NCBI RefSeq assembly: GCF_040436405.1
Contig: NZ_AP031575.1
Span: 2,841,501-2,905,500 of the forward strand
From: Marinomonas sp. THO17
GTDB lineage: Bacteria; Pseudomonadota; Gammaproteobacteria; Pseudomonadales; Marinomonadaceae
DNA: 64,000 nucleotides
Reading direction: 5' to 3'
Shown: positions 1 to 17,140 of the stretch, in pieces
Layout: each line of letters opens with the position of its first letter
Position numbering within the stretch: position 1 is the stretch's first letter
The notes under the pieces: generated by a model
What the model saw: the letters and a program-made list of their open reading frames with translations, nothing else
What the model was told of the DNA's origin: nothing
Databases searched by the model: none
Position numbers and translations under genes: made by a program

Positions 1-79
1 ACCCAAAGGCTTGATTGGTCTATACGGACAGCTTAAATCGAAACGCCAAACCCTACCGACACAGGAGGCGTCATCATGA
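1..79 (+). CDS. urtC: UrtC, urea ABC transporter permease (C-terminal end only)
   Basis: From base 2 an open frame runs into the window and ends with TGA at 77-79, giving about 25 residues that begin PKGLIGLYGQ. The PKG(I/L)xGL segment followed by a basic tail is what the C-terminus of the urea ABC permease UrtC looks like. The stop overlaps the urtD start (ATGA), as expected for translationally coupled urt genes. The rest lies outside the window. The identification rests mainly on position immediately upstream of urtD. Confidence 0.75.
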   Translation, partial: PKGLIGLYGQLKSKRQTLPTQEASS

Positions 80-933
80 ATGCCATAGATCAATCACTAC
101 AAAGTCTAAGGGACACCTTCCGTCGTGATCAGGTATGGCCATTTTTAGCGCCAGAACAAGGGACTAAAGTGGATGTTTCAAATCAGATGATTCTTTATGT
201 AGAAGGCTTGAATTTAAGCTTTGATGGCTTCAAGGCGTTGAACGACTTAAATTTGTATGTGAAAGACGGAGAGCTGCGTTGCCTGATTGGTGCCAATGGC
301 GCGGGCAAAACCACTTTGATGGATGTGATTACCGGCAAATCTCAGCCCGATTCTGGTTCGGTGTTTTTTGGTCAAACCCATAACTTGCTGAGCAAAGACG
401 AAGCGGACATAGCCCAGTTGGGGATTGGACGTAAGTTCCAGAAACCTACGGTATTTGAAGAGCAAAGTGTGTTTGACAACTTAGAGTTGTCTTTGAAAAC
501 GGATAAGCGAGTACTACAGACTCTATTTTCTCGATTGTCACCCAGTGAAATTGATCGTATCGATGAGGTGCTGAAAATCATAGGTTTGAGTGAGCAGCGT
601 TTTATGCAAGCTGGCGCTTTGTCTCATGGGCAGAAGCAATGGTTGGAAATAGGCATGCTTCTTGTATCCGATCCTAGACTTTTACTGATTGATGAACCCG
701 TAGCTGGCATGACGGCTCAGGAAACGGAACGCACCGCGGAGTTGCTGACGTCCTTAGCCGGAGAACGTACCGTTATTGTGGTGGAGCATGATATGGAGTT
801 TGTGCGCAGTATTGCTCGCACTGTGACTGTGCTGCATCAAGGCTCTGTGTTAGCAGAAGGCACCATGGATCAGATTCAGAACAATAAAGACGTCATTGAA
901 GTCTATTTAGGCGAAGAAGCGGTGGAGGCCTAA
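76..933 (+). CDS. urtD: UrtD, urea ABC transporter ATP-binding protein
   Basis: A 285-residue ABC ATPase of the branched-chain amino acid/urea class. Walker A GANGAGKTT lies at about residues 72-80, the ABC signature is the variant LSHGQKQWLEIG, and Walker B is LLLIDEPVAGM. The TAQETERTAELL segment after Walker B is typical of UrtD and LivG. It should energise high-affinity urea import with UrtE, the UrtB/UrtC permeases and the UrtA binding protein. AGGAGG at 63-68 fits the ATG at 76, which overlaps the stop of urtC by four bases. The N-terminal extension of about 40 residues before the ABC domain is longer than in LivG and usual for UrtD. Confidence 0.95.
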   Translation: MNAIDQSLQSLRDTFRRDQVWPFLAPEQGTKVDVSNQMILYVEGLNLSFDGFKALNDLNLYVKDGELRCLIGANGAGKTTLMDVITGKSQPDSGSVFFGQTHNLLSKDEADIAQLGIGRKFQKPTVFEEQSVFDNLELSLKTDKRVLQTLFSRLSPSEIDRIDEVLKIIGLSEQRFMQAGALSHGQKQWLEIGMLLVSDPRLLLIDEPVAGMTAQETERTAELLTSLAGERTVIVVEHDMEFVRSIARTVTVLHQGSVLAEGTMDQIQNNKDVIEVYLGEEAVEA

Positions 934-937
934 CCCT

Positions 938-1627
938 ATGATCAGCATGAAAAAAGTCAGCCAATTGTATGGTGGAACACAAATTTTATGGGATCTGGAT
1001 TTAGACATAGTACCAGGCTCCATTACATGCATTATGGGCCGCAACGGTGTGGGCAAGACCACCTTGATGAAAGCCATTATGGGTTTGTTGCCCATTAAAA
1101 GCGGTGAAATTTTACTGAACCAGCAAGCCTTGCATAAACAAAGTGCAGAACGACGTGCTTACGCAGGCATTGGCTATGTACCTCAAGGCCGTGATATTTT
1201 TCCCATGTTAACGGTGGAGGAAAATTTGCGTATTGGCCTGCCAGTACAAAAGAAAAAAGCCATACCGGAAAAAGTCTTTGAACTCTTTCCGGTATTGAAA
1301 GAAATGTTGCATCGTCGTGGTGGCGATTTGTCGGGTGGTCAGCAGCAGCAATTGGCCATTGGGCGGGCTTTGGTATTGGAGCCAAAAGTTTTAATCTTGG
1401 ACGAACCAAATGAGGGGATCCAACCTAATATTGTTAAACAAATAGGCGATGTGATTCTTAAACTGAATGAGGAAGAAGGTTTAACCGTGATCCTAATCGA
1501 ACAAAAATTGGGCTTTGCCCGTCGCGTGGGCAAGGAGTTTCGTCTCATGGAAAAAGGTCGAATTGTCGCCGCAGATAAGATGGAAAACTTGAACGATGAT
1601 CTCATTAAACAGTATTTAGCCGTATGA
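938..1627 (+). CDS. urtE: UrtE, urea ABC transporter ATP-binding protein
   Basis: A 229-residue LivF-type ABC ATPase, the second nucleotide-binding subunit of the urea importer. Walker A GRNGVGKTT is at residues 34-42, the Q-loop region reads GYVPQGRDIF, the signature is LSGGQQQQLAIG and Walker B is VLILDEPNEGIQP. The NEGIQP sequence is characteristic of UrtE. The gene starts only four bases after urtD stops, and its own stop overlaps the ureD start (ATGA). Uptake and hydrolysis of urea are therefore probably transcribed and translated as one unit. Confidence 0.95.
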   Translation: MISMKKVSQLYGGTQILWDLDLDIVPGSITCIMGRNGVGKTTLMKAIMGLLPIKSGEILLNQQALHKQSAERRAYAGIGYVPQGRDIFPMLTVEENLRIGLPVQKKKAIPEKVFELFPVLKEMLHRRGGDLSGGQQQQLAIGRALVLEPKVLILDEPNEGIQPNIVKQIGDVILKLNEEEGLTVILIEQKLGFARRVGKEFRLMEKGRIVAADKMENLNDDLIKQYLAV

Positions 1628-2496
1628 CCCTCGCTCTGAGTCGTCCCAGTAATGAGCAAACAGCCAGTCAATGGCAAGCCTATTTGCGCTTGGGGTTTGC
1701 ATATGGCGCTCGTGGAACTGTACTGAAAACCTGTGATCATAAAGGGCCTTTGTATGTGCAAAAGCCTTTCTATCCTGAAGGCCAAGACACGGCACATGTG
1801 TATTTGCTGCACCCACCAGGCGGCTTGGTGTCGGGGGATGAATTGGTCATTGAATCACGTCAACAGCCGCATACTCATGTATTGATCACCACACCCGGAG
1901 CGGGTCGGGTTTACCGTGCTCGGCCAGACAAATTATTACAGCGTCAAACAACCCATTTGCACGTACCAAACCACGCCATCATGGAGTGGTTGCCACAAGA
2001 AACCATACTGTACCCCGATGCCAATACAGCGTTAGTGAATCAGATTCACCTTGACTCTGGGGCGCGTTTTATCGGTTGGGAAATCACCTGTTTTGGCTTG
2101 CCCGCTAATCAATTGGACTTTGCTCAAGGACGCGCTAACCAAAGTTTTCAGATCAATGTGGATGGTCGTATCAGGCTGCGCGAGCGGTTACGCATTGATA
2201 AAGATTCCGCAGCGGTAATGAATTCGGCGGCTGGCTTACAAGGACAAGCGGTAAATGGTTTGTTGGTGGCTGGGCCTGTTACGGATTTATCAGACGAGGC
2301 CTTAACTGTCATACGTGACTTATGTGCCGAATTTTCTGGATTAGCAGGCGTGTCTTTGGTGGATGAGTTTATTTTGGTGCGCGCTGTGCATGGTGACAGC
2401 GAGCAAATGAAACATTTGTTTATTCAGTGTTGGCAACAATTGCGACCTGAACTGATGCAGCGCAATGCCTGTGCGCCACGTATTTGGGCGACCTAA
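1624..2496 (+). CDS. ureD: UreD (UreH) urease accessory protein
   Basis: A 290-residue urease maturation scaffold that binds apo-urease and helps UreF and UreG deliver nickel to the active site. Family hallmarks are visible: [14 protein letters not shown] near residues 60-75, [10 protein letters not shown] around 90-100, and [16 protein letters not shown] around 120-135. The ATG overlaps the urtE stop by four bases. ureD precedes the structural genes ureABC, the common order in gammaproteobacterial urease loci. Confidence 0.95.
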
Positions 2497-2515
2497 TGAT
2501 GAAGAGGCTTTGAAT

Positions 2516-2818
2516 ATGGAATTACTACCAAGAGAAAAAGACAAACTGCTGGTGTTTACCGCTGCCTTATTGGCTGAACGTCGCTTAAATCGCGGCTTAA
2601 AACTCAATTATCCTGAAGCCATGGCCTATCTCACTATGGAGATTATCGAAGGCGCGAGGGATGGTAAAAGTGTTGCAGAATTAATGGCTTACGGTAAAAC
2701 CTTATTGAGCGCAGAGCAGGTTATGGATGGCGTAGCGGATTTGATTCATGAGGTTCAGGTTGAGGCAACCTTTCCTGATGGTACTAAGCTGGTAACGGTT
2801 CACAACCCGATCAATTAA
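2516..2818 (+). CDS. ureA: UreA, urease gamma subunit
   Basis: A 100-residue urease gamma subunit starting [11 protein letters not shown], which matches the usual family length and N-terminus. A longer in-frame reading from 2465 would extend back into ureD and add residues foreign to the family, so the ATG at 2516 is chosen. GAAGAGG about ten bases upstream can serve as ribosome site. Motifs include [14 protein letters not shown] and the C-terminal [16 protein letters not shown]. It assembles with UreB and UreC into the nickel urease trimer-of-trimers. Confidence 0.97.
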
Positions 2819-2833
2819 CTGGGGAGAAGCAAG

Positions 2834-3157
2834 ATGATTCCAGGAGAAATACAGGTTAGCGAAGGCGACATTGTACTGAATCAAGGACGCAAAACCTTGA
2901 GAGTTCGAGTGGAAAACACGGGGGATCGCCCAGTGCAGATAGGTTCCCATTACCATTTTTATGAGGTGAATCCAGCGTTAGTCTTTGATCGACCTGCCAC
3001 CAAAGGCTATCGCCTTAATATTGCTTCCGGGACGGCGGTGCGCTTCGAACCCGGTCAGGGACGAGAAGTAGAACTGGTGGCATACGCTGGCAGCAAAAGC
3101 ATTTATGGTTTTCGTGGTGATGTGATGGGCAAACTGGCGACAGAGGAGACAGACTGA
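2834..3157 (+). CDS. ureB: UreB, urease beta subunit
   Basis: A 107-residue urease beta subunit beginning [13 protein letters not shown]. Conserved segments are [21 protein letters not shown] and [16 protein letters not shown], followed by [27 protein letters not shown] lies just before the start at 2834. Its TGA overlaps the ureC ATG by one base (TGATG), a coupling that helps keep subunit stoichiometry. It is a structural subunit of cytoplasmic urease. Confidence 0.97.
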
Positions 3158-4863
3158 TGGCAAGCATGGACCGACAAAGTTACGCACAAATGTTTGGCCC
3201 GACCACTGGCGACAGAGTGCGGTTAGGCGACACCGACTTATGGATTCAAGTGGAGCAGGATTTCACTACCTATGGGGATGAAGTGAAATTTGGCGGCGGC
3301 AAGGTCATTCGTGATGGTATGGGGCAAAGTCAGTTGACCAATGAGGTCGCCGTTGATTTGGTGATTACCAATGCCTTGGTACTGGATCATTGGGGCATAG
3401 TCAAAGGCGATGTTGGGGTCAAAAACGGCCGTATCTTCAAAGTGGGTAAAGCCGGTAACCCAGATGTACAAGATAATGTGGACATTGTCATTGGCCCAGG
3501 TACTGAAGTCATTGCTGGGGAAGGTTCTATTCTTACCGCGGGCGGTATCGACGCGCACATTCACTTCATTTGTCCACAACAGATTGAAGAAGCCCTTACC
3601 TCAGGTGTGACCACCATGATAGGTGGTGGTACGGGTCCGGCGACGGGCACCAATGCCACTACCTGTACGCCGGGGCCTTGGTATTTGGGCAAAATGCTGC
3701 AAGCCACCGACAGTATGCCAATGAATTTGGGCTTCTTAGGAAAGGGCAATGCCAGCTTACCTGAGGCCCTTGAGGAACAATTAGAGGCGGGTGCCTGTGG
3801 CTTGAAATTGCATGAAGATTGGGGCACCACACCTGCGTCTATCGATTGTTGTTTGTCGGTCGCGGAAAAATACGATGTACAGGTAGCGATTCATACCGAT
3901 ACCTTGAACGAATCAGGCTTTGTCGATAGCACCTTGAGCGCCTTTAAAGACAGAGTGATTCACACTTATCACACGGAAGGGGCGGGTGGCGGTCATGCGC
4001 CGGACATTATTCGTGCTGCTGGACGGGCTAATGTACTACCATCTTCGACCAATCCGACCCGTCCTTATACCCAAAATACCGTCGATGAACATCTGGACAT
4101 GCTGATGGTATGTCATCATTTAGACAGTAATATCCCTGAAGACGTGGCCTTTGCCGACTCTCGTATCCGTAAGGAAACCATTGCCGCGGAAGACATTTTC
4201 CATGATCGTGGTGCTTTCTCCATGATCTCATCCGATTCACAAGCCATGGGACGAGTGGGTGAAGTGGTCACTCGAACTTGGCAGACTGCGCACAAAATGA
4301 AGCAGCAATTCGGCTTGTTACCAGAGGATACGGCATTAGGCGCGGACAATTTTCGCGCCAAACGCTATATCGCTAAATACACCATTAACCCTGCCATTGC
4401 GCATGGTGTCAGTCATGAAGTGGGCTCCATTGAAGCGGGTAAATTGGCGGACCTGGTATTGTGGAAGCCAGCGTTTTTTGCGGTTAAACCCTCTTTAATT
4501 ATCAAGGGCGGCATGATTGCCAATGCGCCCATGGGGGACCCCAATGCATCGATACCCACACCGCAGCCTGTGCATTATCGTCCTATGTTTGGCTCCTTTG
4601 GCAAGGCCAGTGCGGCAACCTCGGTGACCTTTGTATCACAGGCCTCATTAGACAATGGGATTAAGCAAAGTTTGGGATTAGAACGCAGTTTAGTGGCCTG
4701 CAAAAACACCCGCAACATTGGTAAATCTGACATGGTCCACAATGACTGGATGCCGGAGATTACCGTGGATCCCCAGACTTATGAAGTCAGGGCGGATGGC
4801 GAGTTACTGACTTGTGAACCGGCCAAAGAGCTGCCTTTAGCGCAGCTTTATAACTTGTTTTAG
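3157..4863 (+). CDS. ureC: UreC, urease alpha (catalytic) subunit
   Basis: A 568-residue catalytic subunit that hydrolyses urea to ammonia and carbamate. All active-site residues sit at the same numbers as in the Klebsiella enzyme: nickel ligands H134 and H136 (DAHIHF), the carbamylated lysine K217 ([10 protein letters not shown]), H246 and H272, the flap histidine H320 (MVCHHLD) and the nickel ligand D360 (SSDSQAMG). The gene therefore looks fully functional. Its start overlaps the ureB stop. About 90 bases separate it from ureE, the longest gap in the ureDABCEF run. Confidence 0.98.
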
Positions 4864-4952
4864 CTTGTCCAGAGCAAGGTGAAAATTTTGAGTGTCTTTA
4901 TAGCCTTTTATAAAACATCGCTAATAAAAAGGCGTGGAGAGGAGAAACGAAT

Positions 4953-5393
4953 TTGGATATTTATACGCGTTTAGGAACCCATTGCCATGACCCTGTGTTT
5001 ACTACAGTCACCTTGGATGCTGAGCAGCGTGAGCGTGGTCGCCTGAAGTTAACGGGTGCCAATGGTGACACGGTTCGAGTCTTTTTGGAGCGGGGTAAAC
5101 CTTTATTGGTCGGGGAATTTTTGCGTTCTGAGTGTGGCAAGATCATTCAAGTAGAAGGTGCGTTAGAAGCTGTTGCCCATGCCAGTTGCGACAATTGGAC
5201 GGTATTTTCTAAAGCCTGTTATCACTTGGGCAACCGTCATACCAAGGTAGAAGTGGGTGAACGTTGGTTACGCATTAAGCCGGATCATGTATTAGAAGAC
5301 ATGTTGCATTTATTGGGCTTAGTGGTTAGCCATGAAGAAGCGGTGTTTAATCCAGAATCTGGAGCTTACAGTCATGGTCATCACCACCACTGA
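4953..5393 (+). CDS. ureE: UreE, urease nickel metallochaperone
   Basis: A 146-residue nickel-binding urease accessory protein. GERWLRIKPDHVLEDML is the typical C-domain segment, and the protein ends in a short His-rich tail (SHGHHHH). The best start is TTG at 4953, eight bases after GGAGAGGAG; no ATG fits, and the N-terminus DIYTRLGTHCHDP matches the family. The tail codons overlap the beginning of ureF. It should donate nickel to UreG during activation. Confidence 0.92.
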   Translation: MDIYTRLGTHCHDPVFTTVTLDAEQRERGRLKLTGANGDTVRVFLERGKPLLVGEFLRSECGKIIQVEGALEAVAHASCDNWTVFSKACYHLGNRHTKVEVGERWLRIKPDHVLEDMLHLLGLVVSHEEAVFNPESGAYSHGHHHH

Positions 5394-6051
5394 TCAGTCC
5401 TTGCTACGCTTGCTGCAGTTAAGCAGTGTCAGCTTGCCCGTGGGTGGTTACGCCTTTTCTCAAGGCTTGGAATACGCGATTGAGAAAGCTTGGCTGAGCA
5501 AACAAGCGGATGTGGCACAGTGGACGCAAGTGCAATTATTGCATGCTTTTGCTCGGGTGGATTTGCCTATTTTACGTTTGGCCATGGCCGCTTGGTATGA
5601 GCAAGATGACAGCAAGCTGGTGGCCTTGAACGACTTGGTATTGGCTTGTCGCGAGACCAAAGAACTGAGATTAAACGATACTGCCATGGGGGAAGCCTTA
5701 GCGCGTCTGATGCGCAGCTTGTCGATTGCAACCCCGTTTCAGCGCATTGAGCAAGTCAGTTTTGTGATCTTGTTTGCGGTGGCCGCCTGCCACTGGAAAA
5801 TCGAGTTCGATACCGCGGCATTGGGTTTTACTTGGTCTTGGCTGGAAAACCAAATTGCGGCGGCTACTAAGTTAGTTCCTTTAGGGCAAACGCAAGCGCA
5901 ACAATTGTTAGGTGAGTTACAACCCGTGATCTCAGAGGCGATTCAGATAGCAAAACACATAGAGGAAGATGACATAGGGGCAGGTTTACCCGCTTTGGCC
6001 ATCGCCAGTAGTTTGCACGAAACCCAATACACAAGGTTGTTTCGTTCATGA
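5374..6051 (+). CDS. ureF: UreF urease accessory protein
   Basis: A 225-residue accessory protein that couples UreG GTP hydrolysis to nickel insertion in the UreDFG complex. The family motif LPVGGYAFSQGLEYAIE follows a short N-terminus. The ATG at 5374 lies inside the end of ureE with a 20-base overlap. A reading from 5332 would add foreign residues, so 5374 is preferred and gives the usual length. Downstream is an unusual tandem-repeat spacer before ureG. Confidence 0.93.
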   Translation: MVITTTDQSLLRLLQLSSVSLPVGGYAFSQGLEYAIEKAWLSKQADVAQWTQVQLLHAFARVDLPILRLAMAAWYEQDDSKLVALNDLVLACRETKELRLNDTAMGEALARLMRSLSIATPFQRIEQVSFVILFAVAACHWKIEFDTAALGFTWSWLENQIAAATKLVPLGQTQAQQLLGELQPVISEAIQIAKHIEEDDIGAGLPALAIASSLHETQYTRLFRS

Positions 6052-6072
6052 CTTAGGATTGGGCTGCGAAAC

Positions 6073-6160
6073 TTAGCCATTTAAATAGATTAGCCGTTTA
6101 AATAGATTTAGCCGTTTAAATAGATGTAGTCGCTTAAATTGATAAAGCCGTTTAAATAAA
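6073..6160 (+). repeat. Five imperfect 17-18 bp tandem repeats between ureF and ureG
   Basis: The spacer holds five head-to-tail copies of a unit close to TAGCCGTTTAAATAGAT, at about 6073-6090, 6091-6107, 6109-6125, 6127-6143 and 6144-6160. Each contains TTTAAAT or TTAAAT. The middle copies are nearly identical and the outer ones diverged. No such array is expected in a urease operon. It could be slippage-derived filler, a protein-binding array, or an element affecting ureG expression; nothing in the sequence decides this. Confidence 0.85.
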
Positions 6161-6197
6161 AAGTGCTCAGATAAGCGCACAAAAGAGGACGTATTTT

Positions 6198-6845
6198 ATG
6201 ACAAAACCAAAACAAACTCTGCGGGTGGGTGTGGGTGGCCCTGTGGGGTCAGGAAAAACCGCCTTGTTACGCTCTTTGTGTTCTGCCATGCGTGAGCATT
6301 ATCAGATCGCAGTGGTCACCAATGATATTTATACACAAGAAGACGCGAAATTTTTGACGCGCCATGAAGCCTTAGAGGCGGATCGTATTATTGGTGTGGA
6401 AACGGGAGGATGTCCACATACGGCCATTCGCGAAGATGCTTCTATGAATCTGGCGGCCATTGATGAATTGGTTGAACGTCACGGTGAGTTGGATGTGGTG
6501 TTTGTGGAATCGGGTGGGGACAACTTGAGTGCCACTTTCAGTCCTGAATTATCTGATTTAACCCTGTATGTGATCGATGTGTCAGCAGGCGATAAAATTC
6601 CCCGTAAAGGTGGCCCTGGCATTACCAAATCGGATCTTTTGATCATCAATAAGATAGATTTAGCGCCATTAGTCGGTGCCTCTTTAGAGGTGATGGACAA
6701 AGATGCCAAGGCGCAGCGCGGTGCTCGTCCTTTTGTCTTTTCAAACTTAAAAGCGGCTCAAGGTCTGGACGACATTATTCAATTCATTGTCTCAGAAGGC
6801 ATGTTGGAAGCGAAAAGCTTGCCACCTGCCAAAGCGGTTGTGTAA
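6198..6845 (+). CDS. ureG: UreG, urease accessory GTPase
   Basis: A 215-residue SIMIBI-class GTPase of the HypB/UreG family. The P-loop is GGPVGSGKT (residues 13-21), the metal-binding Cys-Pro-His motif is at C72-H74 ([11 protein letters not shown]), and FVESGGDNL and the base-recognition segment IINKIDLAP follow. It binds nickel at its dimer interface and drives transfer into apo-urease with UreD and UreF. AAGAGGA precedes the ATG. It is separated from ureF by a 146-base repeat-bearing spacer and followed closely by hupE. Confidence 0.96.
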
Positions 6846-6858
6846 GGGGAGAAACATT

Positions 6859-7443
6859 ATGAAATATCTCATCTCGAAATCTTGTGTGGCCTTGGTTCTG
6901 GTTTTGTCGACAAACCTGACATTAGCGCATTCGGGGCATGGCGAAGGCATGCTTGGATTAGCTGGTTTTGTGCATCCTTTTACCGGCTTGGATCACTTAT
7001 TGGCCATGTTTGCCGTGGGCGTTTGGGCGACAAATTTGGGTGGCCGTGCCTTGTGGGCGGTGCCTTTGTCTTTTATAGCAATGATGTTGGGCGGTGGAGT
7101 ATTGGCTTTCATGGATGTGAATGTGCCTTTCATTGAGCAAGGCATTGTGATGTCGGTGATGGTATTCGGTATCTTGTTGCTTGCCGCTAAACATTTACCT
7201 TTATGGTGCAGTCTTCTACTTACCGCCAGTTTTGCCGTATGCCACGGTGCGGCACATGGTTTGGAAATGCCAGTGACGGCTTCTGCTGGCTCCTATACTT
7301 TGGGCTTTGTTTTAGCAACGGCTTTGATTCAGGCTGTTGGCCTAGGGGTTGGGCGCTGGTTTCAGCAACAGGGTATGCAGCGGCTTAATCAAGTATTAGG
7401 TGGCGTTATTGCGGGGACCGGTATGGCTTTGGCTATTATTTAA
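6859..7443 (+). CDS. hupE: HupE/UreJ family nickel transport membrane protein
   Basis: A 194-residue membrane protein with an N-terminal signal-like segment ending LTLAHSGHGEG and about six transmembrane helices. The first-helix motif GFVHPFTGLDHLLAMFAVGVWA with its conserved His and Asp is the HupE/UreJ nickel-binding signature, and a second His-rich segment reads CHGAAHGLEMP. The start at 6859 follows AGGGGAG and lies 13 bases after ureG. It probably supplies nickel to urease and is the last structural gene of the urease set. Confidence 0.9.
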   Translation: MKYLISKSCVALVLVLSTNLTLAHSGHGEGMLGLAGFVHPFTGLDHLLAMFAVGVWATNLGGRALWAVPLSFIAMMLGGGVLAFMDVNVPFIEQGIVMSVMVFGILLLAAKHLPLWCSLLLTASFAVCHGAAHGLEMPVTASAGSYTLGFVLATALIQAVGLGVGRWFQQQGMQRLNQVLGGVIAGTGMALAII

Positions 7444-7481: not shown

Positions 7482-10400
7482 ATGACAGCTACGCAGAAAA
7501 TCTATAAGGTACGGCGACACTACAACAAGTGGGTCGCTGACCAAACATTGGAAGATTATGCTTTGCGTTATACTGCGAAGGGTGGTCATACCATGAGCAT
7601 CGAAAGGGTGGGGCATACCGCATTGGGAGCCGCCGCCTTTTTGGCGTTAGAAGGATTGGCTGCGGTGATCACCCTAGGCTATGGCTTTACCAATGCGGTA
7701 GCGGCCATTTTGGTAGTGCTGGCGGTGTTTTTTGTTACCGGTTTTCCGATTGCCTATTATTCGGCAAAACATGGCTTAGACATTGACTTACTGACTCGCG
7801 GAGCGGGTTTTGGTTATCTTGGTTCCACCATCACCTCGCTTATTTATGCCACCTTTACCTTTATCTTCTTTGCCATTGAGGCGGCCATTTTGGCGTCGGC
7901 TTTGGAAGTGTTATTAGGGATTCCATTGGCTTTGGGTTATGCCTTGTCTGCCTTGTTTGTCATCCCCATTGTGACGCATGGTATTCGCGCCATCAGCCGT
8001 TTTCAGAATGGCACACAATGGATCTGGTTGGTGTTGCAAGTGGCTGCTATTGGTGTGGTGGTAAGTCAGGAGTACCAAAATTTTTCTGGCTGGTCTGAGT
8101 TTGTTCCGCAACATTTACCTCAATCGACCCAGTTTGATTGGGTACTGTTTGGTGCGGCGGCGTCGGTATTGTTTGCCTTGATGGCGCAAATAGGCGAACA
8201 AGTGGATTACCTGCGTTTTTTTCCGAAGAAGGACATAAGTAATCGTCGTCGTTGGTGGTTTTGGTTGATTTTGGCTGGCCCAGGTTGGGTGTTTATTGGC
8301 GCCATTAAAATGCTGTTGGGATCCTTCTTGGCGTATTTGGCCATTACCGATGGGGCCACTGCTGTGCAAGCCACCGACCCAACCTATCTGTATCAGCGCA
8401 TCTTTTTGTTTCTTACCACGCCTTCTACGGCATTGATTCTCGCCGCTGTATTTGTGTTTATTTGTCAGATGAAGATCAATTTGACCAACGCTTATGCCGG
8501 TTCCATTGCTTGGTCGAATTTCTTTTCCCGATTAACTCATTCTCACCCCGGTCGAGTGGTTTGGCTGGTGTTTAATGTGACCATTGCTTTGTTATTAATG
8601 GAGCTGGGTATTTATCAAGCGCTTGGGGCTATTTTGAGCGTGTTTGCCATCAGTGCGGTGAGTTGGTTGTCGAGCTTGTCTGCGGATTTGCTGATTAACA
8701 AACCATTAGGTTTGAGCCCCAGTGATGTGGAATTCAAACGCGCCCATTTGTATGACATTAATCCTGTGGGTACTGGCTCTATGTTGGTGGCGACCAGCTT
8801 AGGCCTATTGTGCTATCTGGGCTTGTTTGGTGAGGTGGCGAAGAGCTTGTGTCATTTCATTTCCATTGCCACCTGCTTTGTATGTGTGCCACTGATTGCT
8901 TGGTTGACTAAGGGCAAGTATTACATTGCGCGACAGAGTCCAGAATTGGTGCCTTTGGTGGAAGCGGCAAAACCTCGTCACAGTTTAGTGTGCGGTATTT
9001 GTGAGAATGCCTTTGAAGTAGAAGACATGAGTTATTGTTCGGCTTATCAGCTACCCATTTGTTCTCTCTGTTGCTCTTTGGATGCTAGATGTTTGGACAG
9101 TTGTAAGCCGAAAGCCAATATTTCCCAGCAGAGTGATTATTTTCTCAAATTATTTTTACCTAGGCGTATGGCCAAGGCCATCAGTAGCCGTTTGGGACGT
9201 TTCGCTTCCTTGTTGATCATGATCAACATCATCAATGGTGCTTTGATGATGCTGATTTATCGCCAAATGTCGCCCACTAATGACAGCGAAGCCCTGTTGT
9301 TGCAAGAGACCATGTGGGCGTTGTTTTTTACCTTGTTGATTGTGTCTGGTGTATTGTCGTGGCTGTTTTTATTAGCCCATGAAAGTCGTGTGGTGGCGCA
9401 GAAAGAATCCAACCGTCAAACACGCAAACTGACACGAGAAATTGAGGCGCACCAAGAAACGGATCGAGCGTTACAAGGGGCGAAGGAACAAGCCGAGCAA
9501 GCGAATGAGGCCAAAAGTCGTTATCTGAGTGGGATCAGCCACGAATTACGCACGCCGTTACAGTCTATTATTGGTTATGCGCAATTGTTGTCAGACAAAC
9601 AAGACACCCCATCTGGGCATCAAAATGGCTTGGATATTATTCAACGTAGTGGTTTGTATCTTGCTGATTTGATTGAAGGTTTACTGGATATATCGAAGAT
9701 AGAAGCAGGCCGTTTTGATTTGTATCGTAATACGGTGAACCTGCCCAAACTGATTGATGAACTGAACAGTGTGTTTGCTATGCAGGCGCGCGCCAAAGGC
9801 ATTCAATTCCAGTCGAAAATTCTTGCTCCATTACCCAATCACGTGGTGACGGATGAAAAACGACTCCGTCAAATACTGATTAATCTGCTTTCTAATGCAG
9901 TCAAATACACGCCGCAAGGCAGTGTGCAGTTTGAAGTGAATTATCGTAATCAGGTGGCGGAGTTTGTGATACGTGATACTGGGTTGGGCATTAAGCAAGA
10001 GCATTTGCAGCGGATTTTTGATCCTTTTGAGCGCGTTCGTGATTTGTCTACGGCTAACCTGCCGGGTACGGGCTTGGGTCTGACGATAGTGAAACTCTTA
10101 TCAGAGATTATGGGCGGAGATTTGCAAGCCAAGTCGATACCGGGTGAAGGCAGTGAATTTAAAGTATCGCTGATGTTGCCTTGGGTCAGTGAAGGGGATG
10201 TCGGTTTGACTTCCAATCGTCGTATTGTGGGTTATCAGGGCTATCAACGCAGTATCTTGTTGGTGGACGATGATCCCGTTGTGCGTGGCTTATTGTCGGA
10301 TATTTTGTCGCCATTAGGCTTTCATGTACAAGAAGCGCCGGACGCAGAAACCTGTTTGCGAGACTTAGCAAACACTTCACCAGACCTGTTTATTTTGGAT

Positions 10401-10886
10401 GTTTCCATGCCGGGAATGGATGGACTCAGTCTGGCCAAGGAGTTGCGCCAGCAAGGGTATTTGGTGCCTATTATTATGCTGTCAGCGGATGTTCAGGAAA
10501 GTCAGCGTCAGCCTGATGAACAAAGGGTATTCAATCAATATTTAGTGAAACCGATTAAAAATACCGATTTGTTGGAGGCCATTCAAGATTGGCTAGCGGT
10601 TCAGTGGATTTATCAAGATACTGATCAATTATCGTCATTAACTGATACACTGAGTCAGCAGCAAACCATGGAAGTATCCAGTGAAACGCCCATTGAAGAT
10701 CATGAAAGCATACGTGAACTGATCGCTTTTGCTCAAATGGGTTACAAAAAAGGCGTGCGCGAATGCCTTGATCAGATTACCACAGAGGACAGATTAGACG
10801 CCCACCATTTGGCGCAATTGGAACTGTTATATCAAGGCTTCCAGTTTGATGGCATTGCGCACTATATACAACAGCGAAGTATATGA
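7482..10886 (+). CDS. NCS1-type permease fused to hybrid sensor histidine kinase
   Basis: A 1134-residue fusion. Residues about 40-475 form a polytopic domain resembling NCS1 purine/pyrimidine permeases (MSIERVGHTALGA, GEQVDYLRFFPK, MKINLTNAYAGS). Residues 504-541 carry a cysteine cluster (CGIC, YCS, CSLCC, CLDSC), probably metal binding. Two more helices lie at about 573-594 and 611-632, then a coiled segment. HisKA has phospho-acceptor H687 (SGISHELRTP); the ATPase has NLLSNAVKYTP, RDTGLGI and GTGLGLTIVK. A receiver follows with D929-D931, phospho-acceptor D973 and K1023, and about 100 extra residues resemble a phosphotransfer region. It lies 38 bases after hupE and likely senses a urea- or purine-related nitrogen compound. 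Confidence 0.88.
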   Translation: MTATQKIYKVRRHYNKWVADQTLEDYALRYTAKGGHTMSIERVGHTALGAAAFLALEGLAAVITLGYGFTNAVAAILVVLAVFFVTGFPIAYYSAKHGLDIDLLTRGAGFGYLGSTITSLIYATFTFIFFAIEAAILASALEVLLGIPLALGYALSALFVIPIVTHGIRAISRFQNGTQWIWLVLQVAAIGVVVSQEYQNFSGWSEFVPQHLPQSTQFDWVLFGAAASVLFALMAQIGEQVDYLRFFPKKDISNRRRWWFWLILAGPGWVFIGAIKMLLGSFLAYLAITDGATAVQATDPTYLYQRIFLFLTTPSTALILAAVFVFICQMKINLTNAYAGSIAWSNFFSRLTHSHPGRVVWLVFNVTIALLLMELGIYQALGAILSVFAISAVSWLSSLSADLLINKPLGLSPSDVEFKRAHLYDINPVGTGSMLVATSLGLLCYLGLFGEVAKSLCHFISIATCFVCVPLIAWLTKGKYYIARQSPELVPLVEAAKPRHSLVCGICENAFEVEDMSYCSAYQLPICSLCCSLDARCLDSCKPKANISQQSDYFLKLFLPRRMAKAISSRLGRFASLLIMINIINGALMMLIYRQMSPTNDSEALLLQETMWALFFTLLIVSGVLSWLFLLAHESRVVAQKESNRQTRKLTREIEAHQETDRALQGAKEQAEQANEAKSRYLSGISHELRTPLQSIIGYAQLLSDKQDTPSGHQNGLDIIQRSGLYLADLIEGLLDISKIEAGRFDLYRNTVNLPKLIDELNSVFAMQARAKGIQFQSKILAPLPNHVVTDEKRLRQILINLLSNAVKYTPQGSVQFEVNYRNQVAEFVIRDTGLGIKQEHLQRIFDPFERVRDLSTANLPGTGLGLTIVKLLSEIMGGDLQAKSIPGEGSEFKVSLMLPWVSEGDVGLTSNRRIVGYQGYQRSILLVDDDPVVRGLLSDILSPLGFHVQEAPDAETCLRDLANTSPDLFILDVSMPGMDGLSLAKELRQQGYLVPIIMLSADVQESQRQPDEQRVFNQYLVKPIKNTDLLEAIQDWLAVQWIYQDTDQLSSLTDTLSQQQTMEVSSETPIEDHESIRELIAFAQMGYKKGVRECLDQITTEDRLDAHHLAQLELLYQGFQFDGIAHYIQQRSI

Positions 10887-10897
10887 GATAACAGTTG

Positions 10898-11812
10898 ATG
10901 AAGAGTGAGAATCATAACAATGACATAGTGCTGGTCGTAGATGACTCGCCTGATGCATTAAGTTTGATACACGATACCCTCGAACAAGCTCATATGGATG
11001 TACTGGTTGCCCTAGAGGGAAAGCAAGCTTTAACAATCGCCAAGCGTATTCGTCCAGATATTATTTTAATGGATGCCATCATGCCAGTAATGGATGGTTT
11101 TACGGCCTGTAAAGCCCTCAAGCAAGATCCCGCCTTAGCGAATATCCCGGTGATCTTTATGACGGGCTTGAATCATACGGATGACATAGTGCGAGGCTTG
11201 GAAGCGGGTGGCGTAGATTATCTCACCAAGCCCATTCAGCCTAATGAATTGCTGGCGCGTATGAAGGTGCATTTATCGAACGCACGCTTAAGCAATAATG
11301 CCCAGTTTGCTTTAGACAGCATGGGTCAAAATTTGATGACTTTTGACCGTACCGGTGCCATTGCGTGGGCCACACCACAGACCCACGCCTTGATGGCCAA
11401 AGCTCGACTTACACCAGATTGGCAGCAGGATCAGCTGAGTCATCTGGTAAAAGATTGGTTGCTTCACTCACCACAAGAAGGCAATCGATTGCCTTTATCC
11501 CACCTCGATTACCCTTTGACACTGAAGTTTCTGGGTATGACGGAACAGGGTGAAGCGCTGGTGAAACTGGAAGATGGTGAGCGCTTATCGGGGGCGGAAC
11601 TGTTGCGTAACCGTTTGTCGTTAACCGAGCGTGAATCGCAAGTATTACATTGGATCGCTAATGGCAAAACCAATCGTGAGATTGGCGAGATTCTGGCCAT
11701 GAGCCCGCGTACGGTAAACAAGCATCTAGAACAAATTTTTCCCAAGCTTGGGGTAGAAAATCGAACTTCGGCAGCCGGAGTGGCGCTCCGTATTCAAGCT
11801 AACGCCGAATAA
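10898..11812 (+). CDS. Response regulator, receiver plus LuxR-type HTH
   Basis: A 304-residue response regulator. The receiver occupies residues about 10-128 with acidic residues in VVDDSP, phospho-acceptor D59 (LMDAIMPVMDG) and the lysine of YLTKPI. A middle region of about 90 residues resembles a degenerate PAS-like linker (FDRTGAIAWATP). The LuxR/GerE HTH near residues 235-290 reads LTERESQVLHWIANGKTNREIG. ATG 10898 is preferred over the TTG one codon earlier. It begins 11 bases after the hybrid kinase, so the two form a two-component pair that may control the adjacent urea genes; the target is inference. Confidence 0.9.
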   Translation: MKSENHNNDIVLVVDDSPDALSLIHDTLEQAHMDVLVALEGKQALTIAKRIRPDIILMDAIMPVMDGFTACKALKQDPALANIPVIFMTGLNHTDDIVRGLEAGGVDYLTKPIQPNELLARMKVHLSNARLSNNAQFALDSMGQNLMTFDRTGAIAWATPQTHALMAKARLTPDWQQDQLSHLVKDWLLHSPQEGNRLPLSHLDYPLTLKFLGMTEQGEALVKLEDGERLSGAELLRNRLSLTERESQVLHWIANGKTNREIGEILAMSPRTVNKHLEQIFPKLGVENRTSAAGVALRIQANAE

Positions 11813-13131: not shown

Positions 13132-14751
13132 TTAGACAGTAAAACGCTTCACTCTACCAGCCAGTTCGTTTGAATTGGATAAGGTCTCATTGACCGAGTG
13201 ACTGATACGTCGCGATACTTGCATAACTTCTTTCGACATATCGGATAAGGCGGATAAATTTTCATTGATTTCATCGGTCACCTTACTTTGTTGTTCGGTC
13301 GCGCTGGCAGTCTGTGTGGTAAAGTCATAGATGCGATCGGCTGATTGTTTAACTGTATTGATGGCCGCCATGGTTTGATGGGACAGACTTGCGCTAGATC
13401 CCGCCATTTCAACACTTTCTCCAATGACTTTAACTGCATTGTTAACGCCTGATTGTAGATCGCTTATCATGCTTTGGATGTCTTCGGTAGAGGCTTGGGT
13501 CTTGCTAGCTAACTCACGAACTTCATCTGCTACAACGGCAAAGCCTCGTCCTTGTTCTCCTGCTCTGGCGGCTTCAATAGCGGCATTTAATGCCAATAGA
13601 TTAGTCTGTTCTGAAATGCCCAGTATTACATCAAGCACAGAAGCAATGCGATCTGATCGCATAGACAGCTGATCAATTACTGAAGCTGCACCTTTGATTT
13701 GTTCTGCTAAGGAATCTAACTGTTGAATTGCTTGGTTCAATTGTGCAACGCCATGATCAGCAGACTTATTTAGGTCTTGTACTTCGGTGACCGTTTGGTT
13801 GGCATTTTGTGCCACATCACGAGTGGCGCCTCCCATTTCTTCCACCGCCGTGACGACAAAGTCCAGAGATTGATGTTGACGTTCACTGAGATCGGCTGAT
13901 TCAGTTGCAGATTGACCAAGATGAGCCATTTCTTCACGAATGTGCTCACAACCAGAGCGAACTTCTCCTATAAGATTGCCAAGTTTGCCGACGAACATAT
14001 CCAGTTCACGACTGAGTTCACCGGTTTCATCTTTTTTGTTGCTGTTGATGCGCCGGGTCAGGTCGCCATCACCAGCGCTGATTTCATGAACACCAATAGT
14101 GACACGTTTAATCGCATTGGAAATATTGCGGGGAGCAAACCAAGCTAAACCAATACTTAAGGTCAGAACAAAGATGGCAAGAATCGCGACAAAGAGTTTA
14201 AAATTTTCTACATAGACATGAATTTCTTGTTGTTCGATTGCCGAGATTTTGGAAATTAAGCTTTCAGATTCATCATAAAGGTTACGTAATACAGAGAAGC
14301 TTTGCTGATTTTCTCTCGTTAATTTTACACTAGCGGTTTCATACTGATATTGTTTGGTGAGCAGTATGATGAACTCAACTTGTTCAAACCATAGTTGATA
14401 TTGTGCCTCGAAATTTGACAAGAGTTCGTTGACCTCATCAATCTCCATGGTCAGAGATTGAAATTTTTTCATTCTATCGTAGGCTTGCTGAGCATTTTCC
14501 ATGACAGCTCTTTCTTTGTCTGCCACATCCACACCATGTTTTGCAAAAACCATGGAGGCCAAAGCCAATCTGGATTGATAAAGATCTCGGTCAGCGTTTT
14601 GTATGAGAGAAGCGCCATTGGCATATTTTCCCATATTGTTTTGTAGATAGTGCACTAGTCCTTCCGCTGTAATGACTACCATTAAAAAGGTGATGGCCAA
14701 GCCGCCAAAAGCACAGGTATAACGTCCACGAATTGTCTGGAATAGCATCAT
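13132..14751 (-). CDS. Methyl-accepting chemotaxis protein (paralog 1)
   Basis: A 539-residue transmembrane chemoreceptor. TM1 is at about residues 11-33, a helical periplasmic region of roughly 150 residues follows, TM2 is near 187-210 ([10 protein letters not shown] at its end), then HAMP with [15 protein letters not shown]. The signalling tip is [20 protein letters not shown] and [18 protein letters not shown]. No C-terminal CheR-docking pentapeptide is present. The start MMLF at 14751 follows AAGGATG and aligns with paralog 2; longer readings add foreign residues. It shares near-identical architecture with the receptor at 15376-16995, so the two are a tandem duplication with a repeat element between them. 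Confidence 0.93.
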
Positions 14752-14791
14752 TGGATCATCCTTTAGTATAAAACTTAGATAAGTCAAAAGA

Positions 14792-14907
14792 TTAAGGAAG
14801 GTGCGAATAAGTCTTCTGAACGACCCGAAGGAGACCTACATGGATGTAGGGGGAGCAACGCAGGAGCAGCTTGCCCTAGTCAGTGTACTTGTTCGTAACT
14901 TCCTTAA
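14792..14907. repeat. MITE-like repeat, complete copy (about 116 bp)
   Basis: The segment begins TTAAGGAAGGTGCGAATAAG and ends CTTGTTCGTAACTTCCTTAA, so the two ends form imperfect terminal inverted repeats (about 17 of 23 matching beyond TTAA). TTAA sits at both ends and may be a target duplication. Inside are a perfect CCTACAT..ATGTAGG hairpin and a block (GGGAGCAACGCAGGAGCAGC) that recurs at 17141. It carries no coding capacity and lies about 40 bases upstream of chemoreceptor paralog 1, where it may affect the promoter. From 14908 to 15206 the sequence is AT-rich with only a short ATCTCG..CGAGAT hairpin near 14933-14947. Confidence 0.75.
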
Positions 14908-15192
14908 CTTCCTTGCTATACAACTGTCTTTACATCTCGGGGCGAGATAATTAAAAACATTAGAGGATTTTATAAAGGTGGCTGGGGTTTTATGAATGTG
15001 CAGAAAAAGATTGTAACTTTTTTTTAACATAACTTTTCATAAGACGAGTTGATTGTCATAAATTAAACTTAAATCATTGTTTTAAATTGTAAAAATAAGT
15101 TCAATATGGCCAGCTTTATTGCAAACAGTTATTTTTGTAAAAAAGGAATAATGTGTTTTTTTGCTTGTATATTGCATGTTCAACAATAAATA

Positions 15193-15277
15193 TGCGGATA
15201 TTGTGTAAAGGAAGGTGCGAATAAATCTTCTGAACATCTTGGCAATATGCTTATTGGAAAGCAGGCCAATATCCGCA
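15193..15277. repeat. Left end of the MITE-like repeat inside an inverted repeat
   Basis: Bases 15207-15235 repeat the left end of the element at 14792 almost exactly (GGAAGGTGCGAATAAATCTT), but the match stops after CTGAAC. The fragment lies between perfect 11-base inverted repeats, TGCGGATATTG at 15193-15203 and CAATATCCGCA at 15267-15277. A second imperfect hairpin follows at 15319-15364 (AAGACTGATT..AATCAGTCTT) before the end of chemoreceptor paralog 2. No gene is visible between 15278 and 15375. Confidence 0.65.
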
Positions 15278-15375
15278 GATCTGATTGAGAAATTAAGAAG
15301 GGTATATAGCTATCAGCTAAGACTGATTGATGTGAGTATCCTATACTGTGATCAAATCAGTCTTTGGTCGATTTT

Positions 15376-16995
15376 TTATAGGGTAAAGCGCTTAACGAGA
15401 TTAGACAGATCGTTGGAGTTGTTTAAGGTATTAGTGACGGAATCACTAATACGTTTGGATACGTCCATAACTTGTCGCGACATATTAGAAAGCGCAAATA
15501 AGTTTTCATTGATCTCATAGGTAACTTTATTTTGTTGTTCCGTCGCGCTGGCGGTTTGCGCAGCAAAATCGTAAATCTGGTTAGCAACTTGAGTGACGGA
15601 ACGTATGTTTTTCATTGAGTCTTGAGTCAAATCAACGCTTGTATTTGCTATTTCTACCGTTTTATTAATGGCTTTAACTGCGTTTTTCACTCCGGATTGT
15701 AAGTCATTAATCATGACATGGATGTCTTCGGTTGAAGCTTGAGTTTTGTTTGCTAACTCACGAACTTCATCGGCGACAACAGCAAAACCTCGACCTTGCT
15801 CACCAGCTCTGGCAGCTTCAATAGCAGCATTTAAGGCCAATAAATTGGTTTGTTCTGAAATGCCCAAAATCACATCCAGTACTGAAGTAATTTGCTCAGA
15901 ATGAGTTGATACTTGGTTGATAGTGGAAGCCGCTCCTTGGATTTGCTCTGTCAGTAACTGCAATTGTTCAATGGAGAGGATGAGTTGGTCTGAGCCATGC
16001 TTTGCGGTTTGATTCAAGTTTTGTACTTCATTTACCGTTAGTGCAGCATTTTGTGCCACTTCTTTGGTTGACCCTCCCATTTCTTCCACGGCTGATACCA
16101 CAAAGTTGAGCGCTTGGTTTTGATCTTCACTTAATTGGGCTGATTCGGTTGCGGAAGAACCAAGCTCTGTCATCTCTTTTTTTATATCTTCGCTGCCAGA
16201 GCGAATTTCACCGATTAGACTGGCAAGTTTGTCGACAAAATGATCTAGCTCTCGACTCAGTTCACCCGTTTCATCTTTTTTAGGGCTATTGATACGACGG
16301 GTTAAATCACCGTCTCCTGCACTGATTTCATGGACACCTGAAGTGACAAGCTTGATGGCGCGAGAAATATTACGTGGAGCAAACCAAGCAAGTGACACAC
16401 TGAGCAAGATAACAACAATAGCAAAAATCAAGGTGGCTAATTTAAAGTTCTCGGTAAAGTTATGAATATCTTGTTGTTCTTGTGAAGAATACTTATTAAT
16501 AAGTTCTTCAGAATGGTCGTATAGGCTTCTTAATTCAACAAAGTCAGTGTGATTTTGAGCAGATAATTCTGCGCTTGCTAGATCGAGCTTATCTTGCTCA
16601 ACCAATTTAATAATGTTTAAGGTTTGTTGGTACCAATGCTGATATTCGCTCTCATAGTTTTTAAGTAAGGTATTAACTTCCTGAATGTCTGAGGCGATCT
16701 TTTGAAAACCCTTCATTCGATCATACGCTTGTTGTGCATTTTCTAAGATTGCCGATTTAAGCTCTGCTGGTGATCCGTTTTGGGGTAGTAAGACAAAAGA
16801 AATTAATGCGATACGAGACTGGTATAAATCTCGATCTGCATTCTGTATTAAGGAAATGCCTGGTGAGTATTTTCCCAAGTGATTTTGCAGGTAATTAATC
16901 AGTCTTTCGGAGCTTATTATAACAGCGATAAAAGTAAGGGCTAATGCGCTAAAGGTAAAGGTATACCGTCCTCTTATGGTCTTAAAAAATGCCAT
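15376..16995 (-). CDS. Methyl-accepting chemotaxis protein (paralog 2)
   Basis: A 539-residue chemoreceptor, the same length and layout as the receptor at 13132-14751: TM1 at about 10-32, a helical periplasmic domain ([24 protein letters not shown]), TM2 near 187-210, HAMP with [15 protein letters not shown], and the tip [20 protein letters not shown]. The periplasmic domain has diverged more than the cytoplasmic half, as expected for receptors evolving different ligands. Start MAFF at 16995 follows AAGGATT; upstream in-frame residues are discarded. Fragments of a short repeat flank the gene on both sides (15207-15235 and 17141-17220). Confidence 0.93.
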   Translation of the reverse strand: MAFFKTIRGRYTFTFSALALTFIAVIISSERLINYLQNHLGKYSPGISLIQNADRDLYQSRIALISFVLLPQNGSPAELKSAILENAQQAYDRMKGFQKIASDIQEVNTLLKNYESEYQHWYQQTLNIIKLVEQDKLDLASAELSAQNHTDFVELRSLYDHSEELINKYSSQEQQDIHNFTENFKLATLIFAIVVILLSVSLAWFAPRNISRAIKLVTSGVHEISAGDGDLTRRINSPKKDETGELSRELDHFVDKLASLIGEIRSGSEDIKKEMTELGSSATESAQLSEDQNQALNFVVSAVEEMGGSTKEVAQNAALTVNEVQNLNQTAKHGSDQLILSIEQLQLLTEQIQGAASTINQVSTHSEQITSVLDVILGISEQTNLLALNAAIEAARAGEQGRGFAVVADEVRELANKTQASTEDIHVMINDLQSGVKNAVKAINKTVEIANTSVDLTQDSMKNIRSVTQVANQIYDFAAQTASATEQQNKVTYEINENLFALSNMSRQVMDVSKRISDSVTNTLNNSNDLSNLVKRFTL

Positions 16996-17140
16996 AATCT
17001 TAATCCTTTGTAGTTTTGTAATTTTTTGTAATTTAGTTCGGATTTTATACATTGACCTGCTTTTATCTCAATAGATAATGTGTAAACAAGATGAAATGAA
17101 ATGAGTATAATTTTTAACGGAATACAAAGGACAATGAACT

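Follow-up and report, generated by a model that had tools for sequence, protein, structure and literature searches.

Which signal is perceived by a permease-like sensor kinase that is encoded at the end of a urease gene cluster, and which genes does it control? The question is raised by a stretch of 64,000 nucleotides from Marinomonas sp. THO17 (G000:C1:2841501-2905500, hereafter "the window"; the host genome is a single contig of 3.92 Mb), where genes for urea transport and urease are followed by a hybrid sensor kinase of 1134 amino acids (window positions 7482..10886, + strand) and a separate response regulator of the LuxR/NarL type (10895..11812, + strand, likely start codon ATG at 10898). 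Comparison with homologs shows how the sensor is built, which fold its permease domain has, which genes it is linked to and which promoter element accompanies it. We consider it likely that the pair forms a two-component system, which detects urea (in sister clades formamide and short-chain amides) by means of an NCS1-type domain and drives the urtABCDE-ure or urt-fmd genes via a promoter palindrome.

Domain architecture of the sensor kinase and its regulator

The initial annotation of the window described a protein composed of a permease, a cysteine cluster, two extra helices, a HisKA/ATPase core and a receiver, with a separate LuxR regulator next to it. This plan is confirmed by the open reading frames, by Pfam domains and by homologs. 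The loci surveyed were not a random sample: they comprise draws from the order and the class, the 80 closest of 595 relatives in genome_contigs and chosen plasmid records. They yielded 173 permease frames, from which 160 full-length hybrid sensors (158 unique) were kept after dropping frames of at most 1050 amino acids, frames running off a contig and two proteins with another domain plan (L210 and L211).

The permease domain (residues ~40-483, 7599..8930, + strand) was modelled with AlphaFold2 (AF2) at a pLDDT of 80.6, and its LeuT-type fold is closest to the NCS1 transporters CodB and Mhp1, which are its best matches in the PDB. In hhalign comparisons, NCS1 proteins reached 99.7% (E 3e-27, 428 columns) versus 0.2% for a control set of SSS proteins, and the NCS1-like character proposed in the initial annotation is thus borne out. 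Unlike NCS1 members, the domain has no direct Pfam match. The Pfam model of NCS1, PF02133, gave no hit up to E 10, and when 31 members were compared with Pfam at E values up to 1, it was absent among the families retrieved; for the first 483 residues, searches reaching E 10 in Pfam and E 1 in NCBIfam found no model at all. Based on fold and profile-profile comparison, we therefore term the domain "NCS1-type", apparently a divergent branch, and do not file it as an NCS1 member. An SSS/SLC5 identity was rejected in view of the hhalign control and of the missing PF00474 match; a PF00474 search of the host genome retrieved only frames other than the sensor.

The permease is followed by a module of eight cysteines (C504-C541, 8991..9104, + strand), all of which are invariant in 160/160 sensors; a profile search of the PDB with this Cys8 module returned CRIPT alone, at E 0.7. 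Two further membrane helices (residues ~570-633, 9189..9380, + strand) are predicted from the secondary structure of the AF2 model, the end of the second being approximate. Pfam assigns HisKA and HATPase_c (residues 677-898, 9510..10175, + strand) and a receiver domain (residues 925-1035, 10254..10586, + strand). H687 and D973, already named as phosphorylation residues in the initial annotation, are each present in all 160 full-length sensors, as befits a hybrid histidine kinase, and the active-site residues of kinase and permease are likewise invariant in 160/160. The helical tail (residues ~1042-1134, 10605..10883, + strand) had been regarded as a possible phosphotransfer domain, a view that has to be abandoned: residues 1040-1134 of the 160 proteins hold no conserved histidine, and Pfam reports no histidine phosphotransfer (Hpt) domain or any other family above its cut-off. 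The conserved residues of the tail, W1042, L1080 and G1087, belong to no known domain.

In 154/160 cases the gene immediately following the sensor encodes a regulator. That of the window combines a Pfam receiver with a GerE domain, as in NarL/FixJ-type proteins; D16, D17, D60 and K112 are invariant in 50 aligned regulators. Its middle part appears PAS-like from the order of strands and helices alone, a domain barely tested in the list of structures compared.

Gene linkage and a palindrome upstream of urtA

The putative target genes precede the sensor in the window. The genes urtD and urtE (76..1627, + strand; TIGR03411 and TIGR03410, both above cut-off) are followed by ureD-A-B-C-E-F-G-J (1624..7443, + strand), then by the sensor and the regulator, all collinear. 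UreA, B, C, E and G were recognized by NCBIfam above cut-off and UreJ by Pfam; UreD and UreF were named after their counterparts in locus L296, whose annotated urease cluster they match at 32%.

Neighbours were counted in 124 unique loci in which the sensor is flanked by 7 kb or more on either side (34 loci with less than 7 kb on one side were left out), using fixed identity cut-offs and urea/formamide genes only. Urea or amide genes lie within 12 kb of the sensor in 114/124 loci, divided into 41 with urease/urea-transport genes, 71 with a UrtABCDE/formamidase-type set and two with both. The survey of homologs that the initial annotation had called for thus finds the urea neighbourhood retained; neither of the two observations examined that it had set against its own proposal, scattered homologs and a permease that is not NCS1-like, was made. 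Several exceptions also hold related genes. In L053, urtC/D/E are in range and urtA lies ~10 kb from the sensor, just beyond the stretch read; in G048, G111 and G198, urtA and ureC are found ~14-25 kb off on the same contig (the sequence of L118 equals that of L049); and in G233, G172 and G238 both genes occur elsewhere in the genome, urtA being separated from the sensor by 200 kb or placed on a different contig. G044 has neither urtA, a formamidase match nor a urease alpha subunit above cut-off and encodes a full urea carboxylase (1767 bits).

At the level of genomes, urtA was found above cut-off in 61/65 sensor genomes versus 57/179 others, counted by hand with a Fisher test whose p-value overstates the association, since the genomes are related. 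A tree of 109 permease domains requires 24 changes of the neighbour label; after shuffling of the labels the mean is 47. Among its clades, one (n=26, support 100) comprises 16 urease-linked members and 10 that lack a counted neighbour, with formamidase linkage absent, and urease linkage recurs in further clades.

Words common to the intergenic regions between sensor and urtA spell a putative operator of 16 bp, TACGTCA-N2-TGACGTA. It was derived from 47 dereplicated regions (41 formamidase-type, 6 urease-type) of 95 short ones among 115, and at least 12 of its 14 positions are matched in 33/47 of these regions compared with 1/470 shuffled ones. Among promoters outside the derivation, the site occurs upstream of urtA in 18/20 sensor genomes (15.8-27.9 bits), namely in 10/10 of the window's genus and 8/10 of other genera, and in 0/20 sensor-less genomes, where the best score was 5.2 bits and the urtA products are 71-84% identical to the query protein. 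The sensor genomes were chosen for a urtA outside the derivation loci, with at least one more, G088, left out; the sensor-less genomes were drawn from high-ranking urtA matches. Control of the urt-ure genes, as suggested by the initial annotation, thus gains support from a palindrome that tracks the sensor, and activation is the direction we infer.

A pattern search of ten whole sensor genomes found exactly one perfect site, upstream of urtA, in eight, a site with one mismatch at urtA in another, and a site with two mismatches in the genome of the window. The latter (2837321-2837336, 144 bp before the urtA start, 18.8 bits) belongs to a urtA promoter that lies upstream of the window, and the motif search of the window itself gave 0 matches. 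A 2-mismatch site 474 bp before the Pfam match of the NCS1 gene G000:C1:2211907 lies inside the upstream open reading frame; it was taken as chance.

The palindrome also occurs between the sensor and a standalone permease in L213 (20.7 bits) and in Acinetobacter baumannii (15.5 bits). A second copy with one mismatch and away from urtA (G097:C1:3221014-3221029, L288) marks a possible further target. Six loci (L241, L242, L078, L084, L145 and L060) combine a perfect half-site TACGTCA with an alternative half-site resembling CCCCA/TGGGG, as if two types of half-sites existed.

Proposed mechanism and alternative explanations

The ligand and the phosphoflow are likewise inferred. Urea and short-chain amides are the substrates common to the counted neighbours, and since a formamidase-type set is present in the majority of these loci, we widened the ligand class from urea to both. 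The ligand would bind in the region of E133, N333 and N336, which align to NCS1 substrate positions and are invariant among 160 sensors, and thereby change the conformation of the permease. The change would be relayed via the Cys8 module and the last helices to a dimerised HisKA domain, and H687 would hand its phosphate on to D973, straight to D60 of the regulator, or to both. In its phosphorylated form the regulator would then bind the palindrome and activate urtA, so that the collinear urtABCDE-ure-sensor-regulator run is expressed with positive feedback; in sister clades it would activate the divergent urt-fmd genes.

One residue may reflect ligand specificity. Position 232, beside the G219/W220 stretch of Mhp1 and one of six columns passing the filter, is Ala in three urease-linked groups (24/25, 18/18 and 3/3; groups set by hand from the permease tree), Pro in 6/7 members of a fourth such group and Ser in 76% of the formamidase-linked sensors (n=86). 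The split is only suggestive, because a urease-linked standalone permease has Ser there.

A variant compatible with the proposed urea/amide sensor holds that the kinase is a transceptor, which also transports urea or amides and ties signaling to flux. The retained substrate positions agree with this possibility, to which we give a lower, though appreciable, probability. The roles of the aligned Mhp1 residues as substrate, sodium and aromatic-pair positions are assumed here, and its sodium site presumably comprises A38, I41, A309, S312 and T313. In a single alignment of low identity, S312 of Mhp1 aligns with K331 of the sensor and T313 with I332; unlike in Mhp1, the sodium site is thus not recovered. 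Since K331, invariant among the 160 sensors, stands in place of a Na2-site serine, sodium coupling seems doubtful. The same alignment replaces Gln121 of Mhp1 by Glu133 and both tryptophans of the aromatic pair by F129 and M234. A related case is CbrA, which was studied for transport as well as kinase activity, as far as the accessible part of that report goes (PMC7096432). Against transport by the sensor stands the UrtABCDE set, which is already present in most counted loci.

It is rather unlikely that the same regulon is governed by a different signal, i.e., by the nitrogen, energy or redox/metal state of the cell, perhaps via the Cys8 module, and not by urea itself. The strict invariance of the eight cysteines would fit such a role, as would AmsSR of A. 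baumannii, probably a family member, which is induced by carbonyl cyanide m-chlorophenylhydrazone and whose mutants show altered membrane energetics in the available portion of the publication (PMC10112286). The invariant residues at the substrate positions argue against it, and so do standalone permeases of the family that occur with urease and formamidase. Moreover, the full Cys8 module is found without a kinase in one standalone permease (559 amino acids, G504/L213), and is therefore not specific to signaling. The number of cysteines rises from one in an Arthrobacter permease to four (CxxC-CxxC) in both Acinetobacter permeases and eight in the G504 permease and the sensors, a gradient which shows the module to be part of the permease. 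Nickel for urease was rejected as its ligand, since formamidase-linked sensors also have Cys8.

Several observations weigh against a urea/amide sensor acting through the palindrome. For mutants of AmsSR, broad metabolic effects were reported, and the main text of the paper, in the version available, is free of the words urea, formamid-, NCS1 and permease (PMC10112286). L110 and L111 have no urea/amide gene within the stretch read, and G379, which harbours two family proteins (one without a kinase), gave no match for formamidase, the urease alpha subunit or a full urea carboxylase in searches that did not include urtA. At the promoter level, the sensor genomes G212 and G152 lack a site at urtA, and the loci around these misses, L057 and L059, contain none that scores 15 bits; for G048, 1/100 shuffles attained the 15.8 bits of its site. 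Lineage and sensor are partly confounded, because 10/20 sensor genomes and 0/20 sensor-less genomes belong to the genus of the window. Finally, the window's genome contains nine 2-mismatch sites compared with eight in a reversed control, not rarer than chance, and the site is therefore not significant for this genome alone; it is backed only by its place and by its 18.8 bits compared with shuffled promoter sequence.

Genetic hitch-hiking, the conservation of the pair beside urt-ure without control over it, was considered and rejected as very improbable. Control is indeed not demonstrable from a neighbourhood alone; yet G233, G172 and G238 each carry a single perfect site at urtA despite an unlinked sensor, so that linkage does not explain the site, and none of the 20 sensor-less genomes has the palindrome at urtA. 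A purine or uric-acid sensor, which the initial annotation had included next to urea and which NCS1 membership suggests, as the best-matching carriers of solved structure transport cytosine and hydantoins, was rejected as least probable of all, given the loss of both tryptophans of the Mhp1 aromatic pair and eight annotated stretches that list no purine gene, with no search aimed at purine neighbours.

Relatives of the sensor and comparison with known systems

The N-terminal part of the sensor (657 amino acids) was found in 65/244 genomes of the order, with a piece of only 90 residues in G039, and in 532 plasmid records, 342 of them from Klebsiella; at least 80% of the query was matched in 507. 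The Cys/two-helix part alone matched 17/274 genomes of the class. Of the 16 fetched loci with cysteines, 15 have the permease, and the remaining one, L225, is truncated by a contig end; the seventeenth, L226, matched the helices only. A scan of viral_contigs retrieved no relative. The sensor frame is interrupted in L035 (Halomonas plasmid) and L124 (a metagenome-assembled genome of Cellvibrionaceae), and L224 encodes a 618-amino acid protein just upstream of the sensor (4914-6770), which has no Pfam match and is not homologous to the permease.

Standalone members of the permease family may have given rise to the sensors. One of them, the 559-amino acid permease of G504 (L213), is encoded divergently from the sensor and followed by a formamidase (fmdA) and a fmdB match; the 20 kb read there contain no urt gene. 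In Acinetobacter sp. NEB149 a permease of 535 amino acids precedes ureEFGJDABC by 407 bases, in the same orientation. A. baumannii X4-300 (L295) encodes a 548-amino acid permease in divergent orientation to the sensor-regulator pair, and the 26 kb read at this locus contain no urease genes. The Arthrobacter permease (39%) is also standalone and has other neighbours. The two standalones in the permease tree (L106 and L213) branch next to the outgroup, a placement that is unsure because of long branches.

The same input is further found on an orthodox kinase without a receiver (L212), on a PAS-kinase-receiver protein (L211, G379) and, in L105, on an 874-amino acid kinase without a receiver, whose neighbours are a formamidase, an AmiS/UreI-type protein and separate regulators. 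In L210 (7851-11519, G379) permease and Cys8 are fused to PAS-GGDEF-EAL, with cyclic di-GMP as a possible output. Varied outputs behind one input are the pattern expected of a sensor module. L105 (1-2482, Paracoccus seriniphilus) also encodes hutI, formimidoylglutamate deiminase and HutD near its formamidase-linked sensor, a possible internal source of formamide.

Transporter-like inputs fused to kinases are known from CbrA, CrbS and RpuS. As far as the available parts of these reports show, CrbS and RpuS are also hybrid kinases and govern acetate and pyruvate genes by way of LuxR-type partners; the SLC5/STAC kinases control uptake and use genes via a promoter repeat motif (PMC5715377, PMC9100948). 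In contrast to their SLC5 sodium-solute-symporter domain, which goes with STAC, the sensor described here has an NCS1-type permease; this is followed by an 8-Cys module and two helices, and the neighbours are urea and amide genes. It appears to work like CrbS, yet it lacks the permease that defines the SLC5 family. A second transporter family is thereby added to the transporter-kinases.

AmsS of A. baumannii is described in the accessible text as a hybrid kinase with 14 predicted N-terminal transmembrane helices, no Hpt and a LuxR-type regulator directly downstream; it was published without a ligand, and one conserved cysteine was discussed by comparison with ArcB (PMC10112286). The member in L295 likewise consists of HisKA, HATPase and receiver, followed by a receiver-GerE regulator. 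As the A. baumannii record contains one family kinase of this plan and its SSF proteins are all of standalone size (501-585 amino acids), AmsSR (ABUW_2427/ABUW_2426 of strain AB5075) is probably a member, judged by architecture and species match. The initial annotation had anticipated an undescribed signaling system; apart from AmsSR, which qualifies this view, we found no functional description of the sensor family in the open-access literature, and no dedicated substrate sensor for UrtABCDE/urease or UrtABCDE/formamidase sets. For AmsSR, urea or a related amide becomes a candidate ligand that can be tested.

The fmd-type loci carry genes comparable to fmdCABDEF of Methylophilus, which, according to the accessible part of the source, encode formamidase and amide/urea uptake, are induced by formamide and urea and have a regulator called only a putative positive one (PMC10781810). 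The urea transport cluster "UTS" of Klebsiella pneumoniae plasmids contains the same kind of UrtABC/formamidase set, and "two-component" is absent from the available main text of both papers (PMC5506382, PMC13060141). In L104, a K. pneumoniae plasmid, sensor and regulator adjoin UrtABCDE/formamidase, near resistance and heat-shock genes. A genome paper, as far as available, mentions that a second urtABCDE set adjoins a two-component pair of the LuxR type, to which it assigns no function (PMC13296017).

There is about an even chance that the family has a wider meaning: an unrecognised NCS1 branch of urea/formamide permeases, lacking the sodium site and bearing a cytosolic zinc-ribbon-like Cys module, would serve both as transporter in urease or formamidase operons and, with eight cysteines, as a plug-in sensor for hybrid and orthodox kinases and PAS-GGDEF-EAL proteins. 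It would supply the missing substrate sensor of urt-ure and urt-fmd sets across Proteobacteria through one conserved operator and would explain AmsSR. Urea and formamide are important nitrogen sources, for which sensor, regulator and 16-bp operator are now named candidates. Several hundred database entries (507 plasmid records) contain an "ATP-binding protein" or "hypothetical protein" for which a function is thereby suggested.

Beyond the regulator, the window continues with a radical SAM gene of the PA0069 family and, downstream of it, two adjacent genes for methyl-accepting chemotaxis proteins (MCPs; 13132-17052). Both encode a HAMP and an MCP signaling domain, and the nearest NCBIfam model, CtpM, is below its cut-off.

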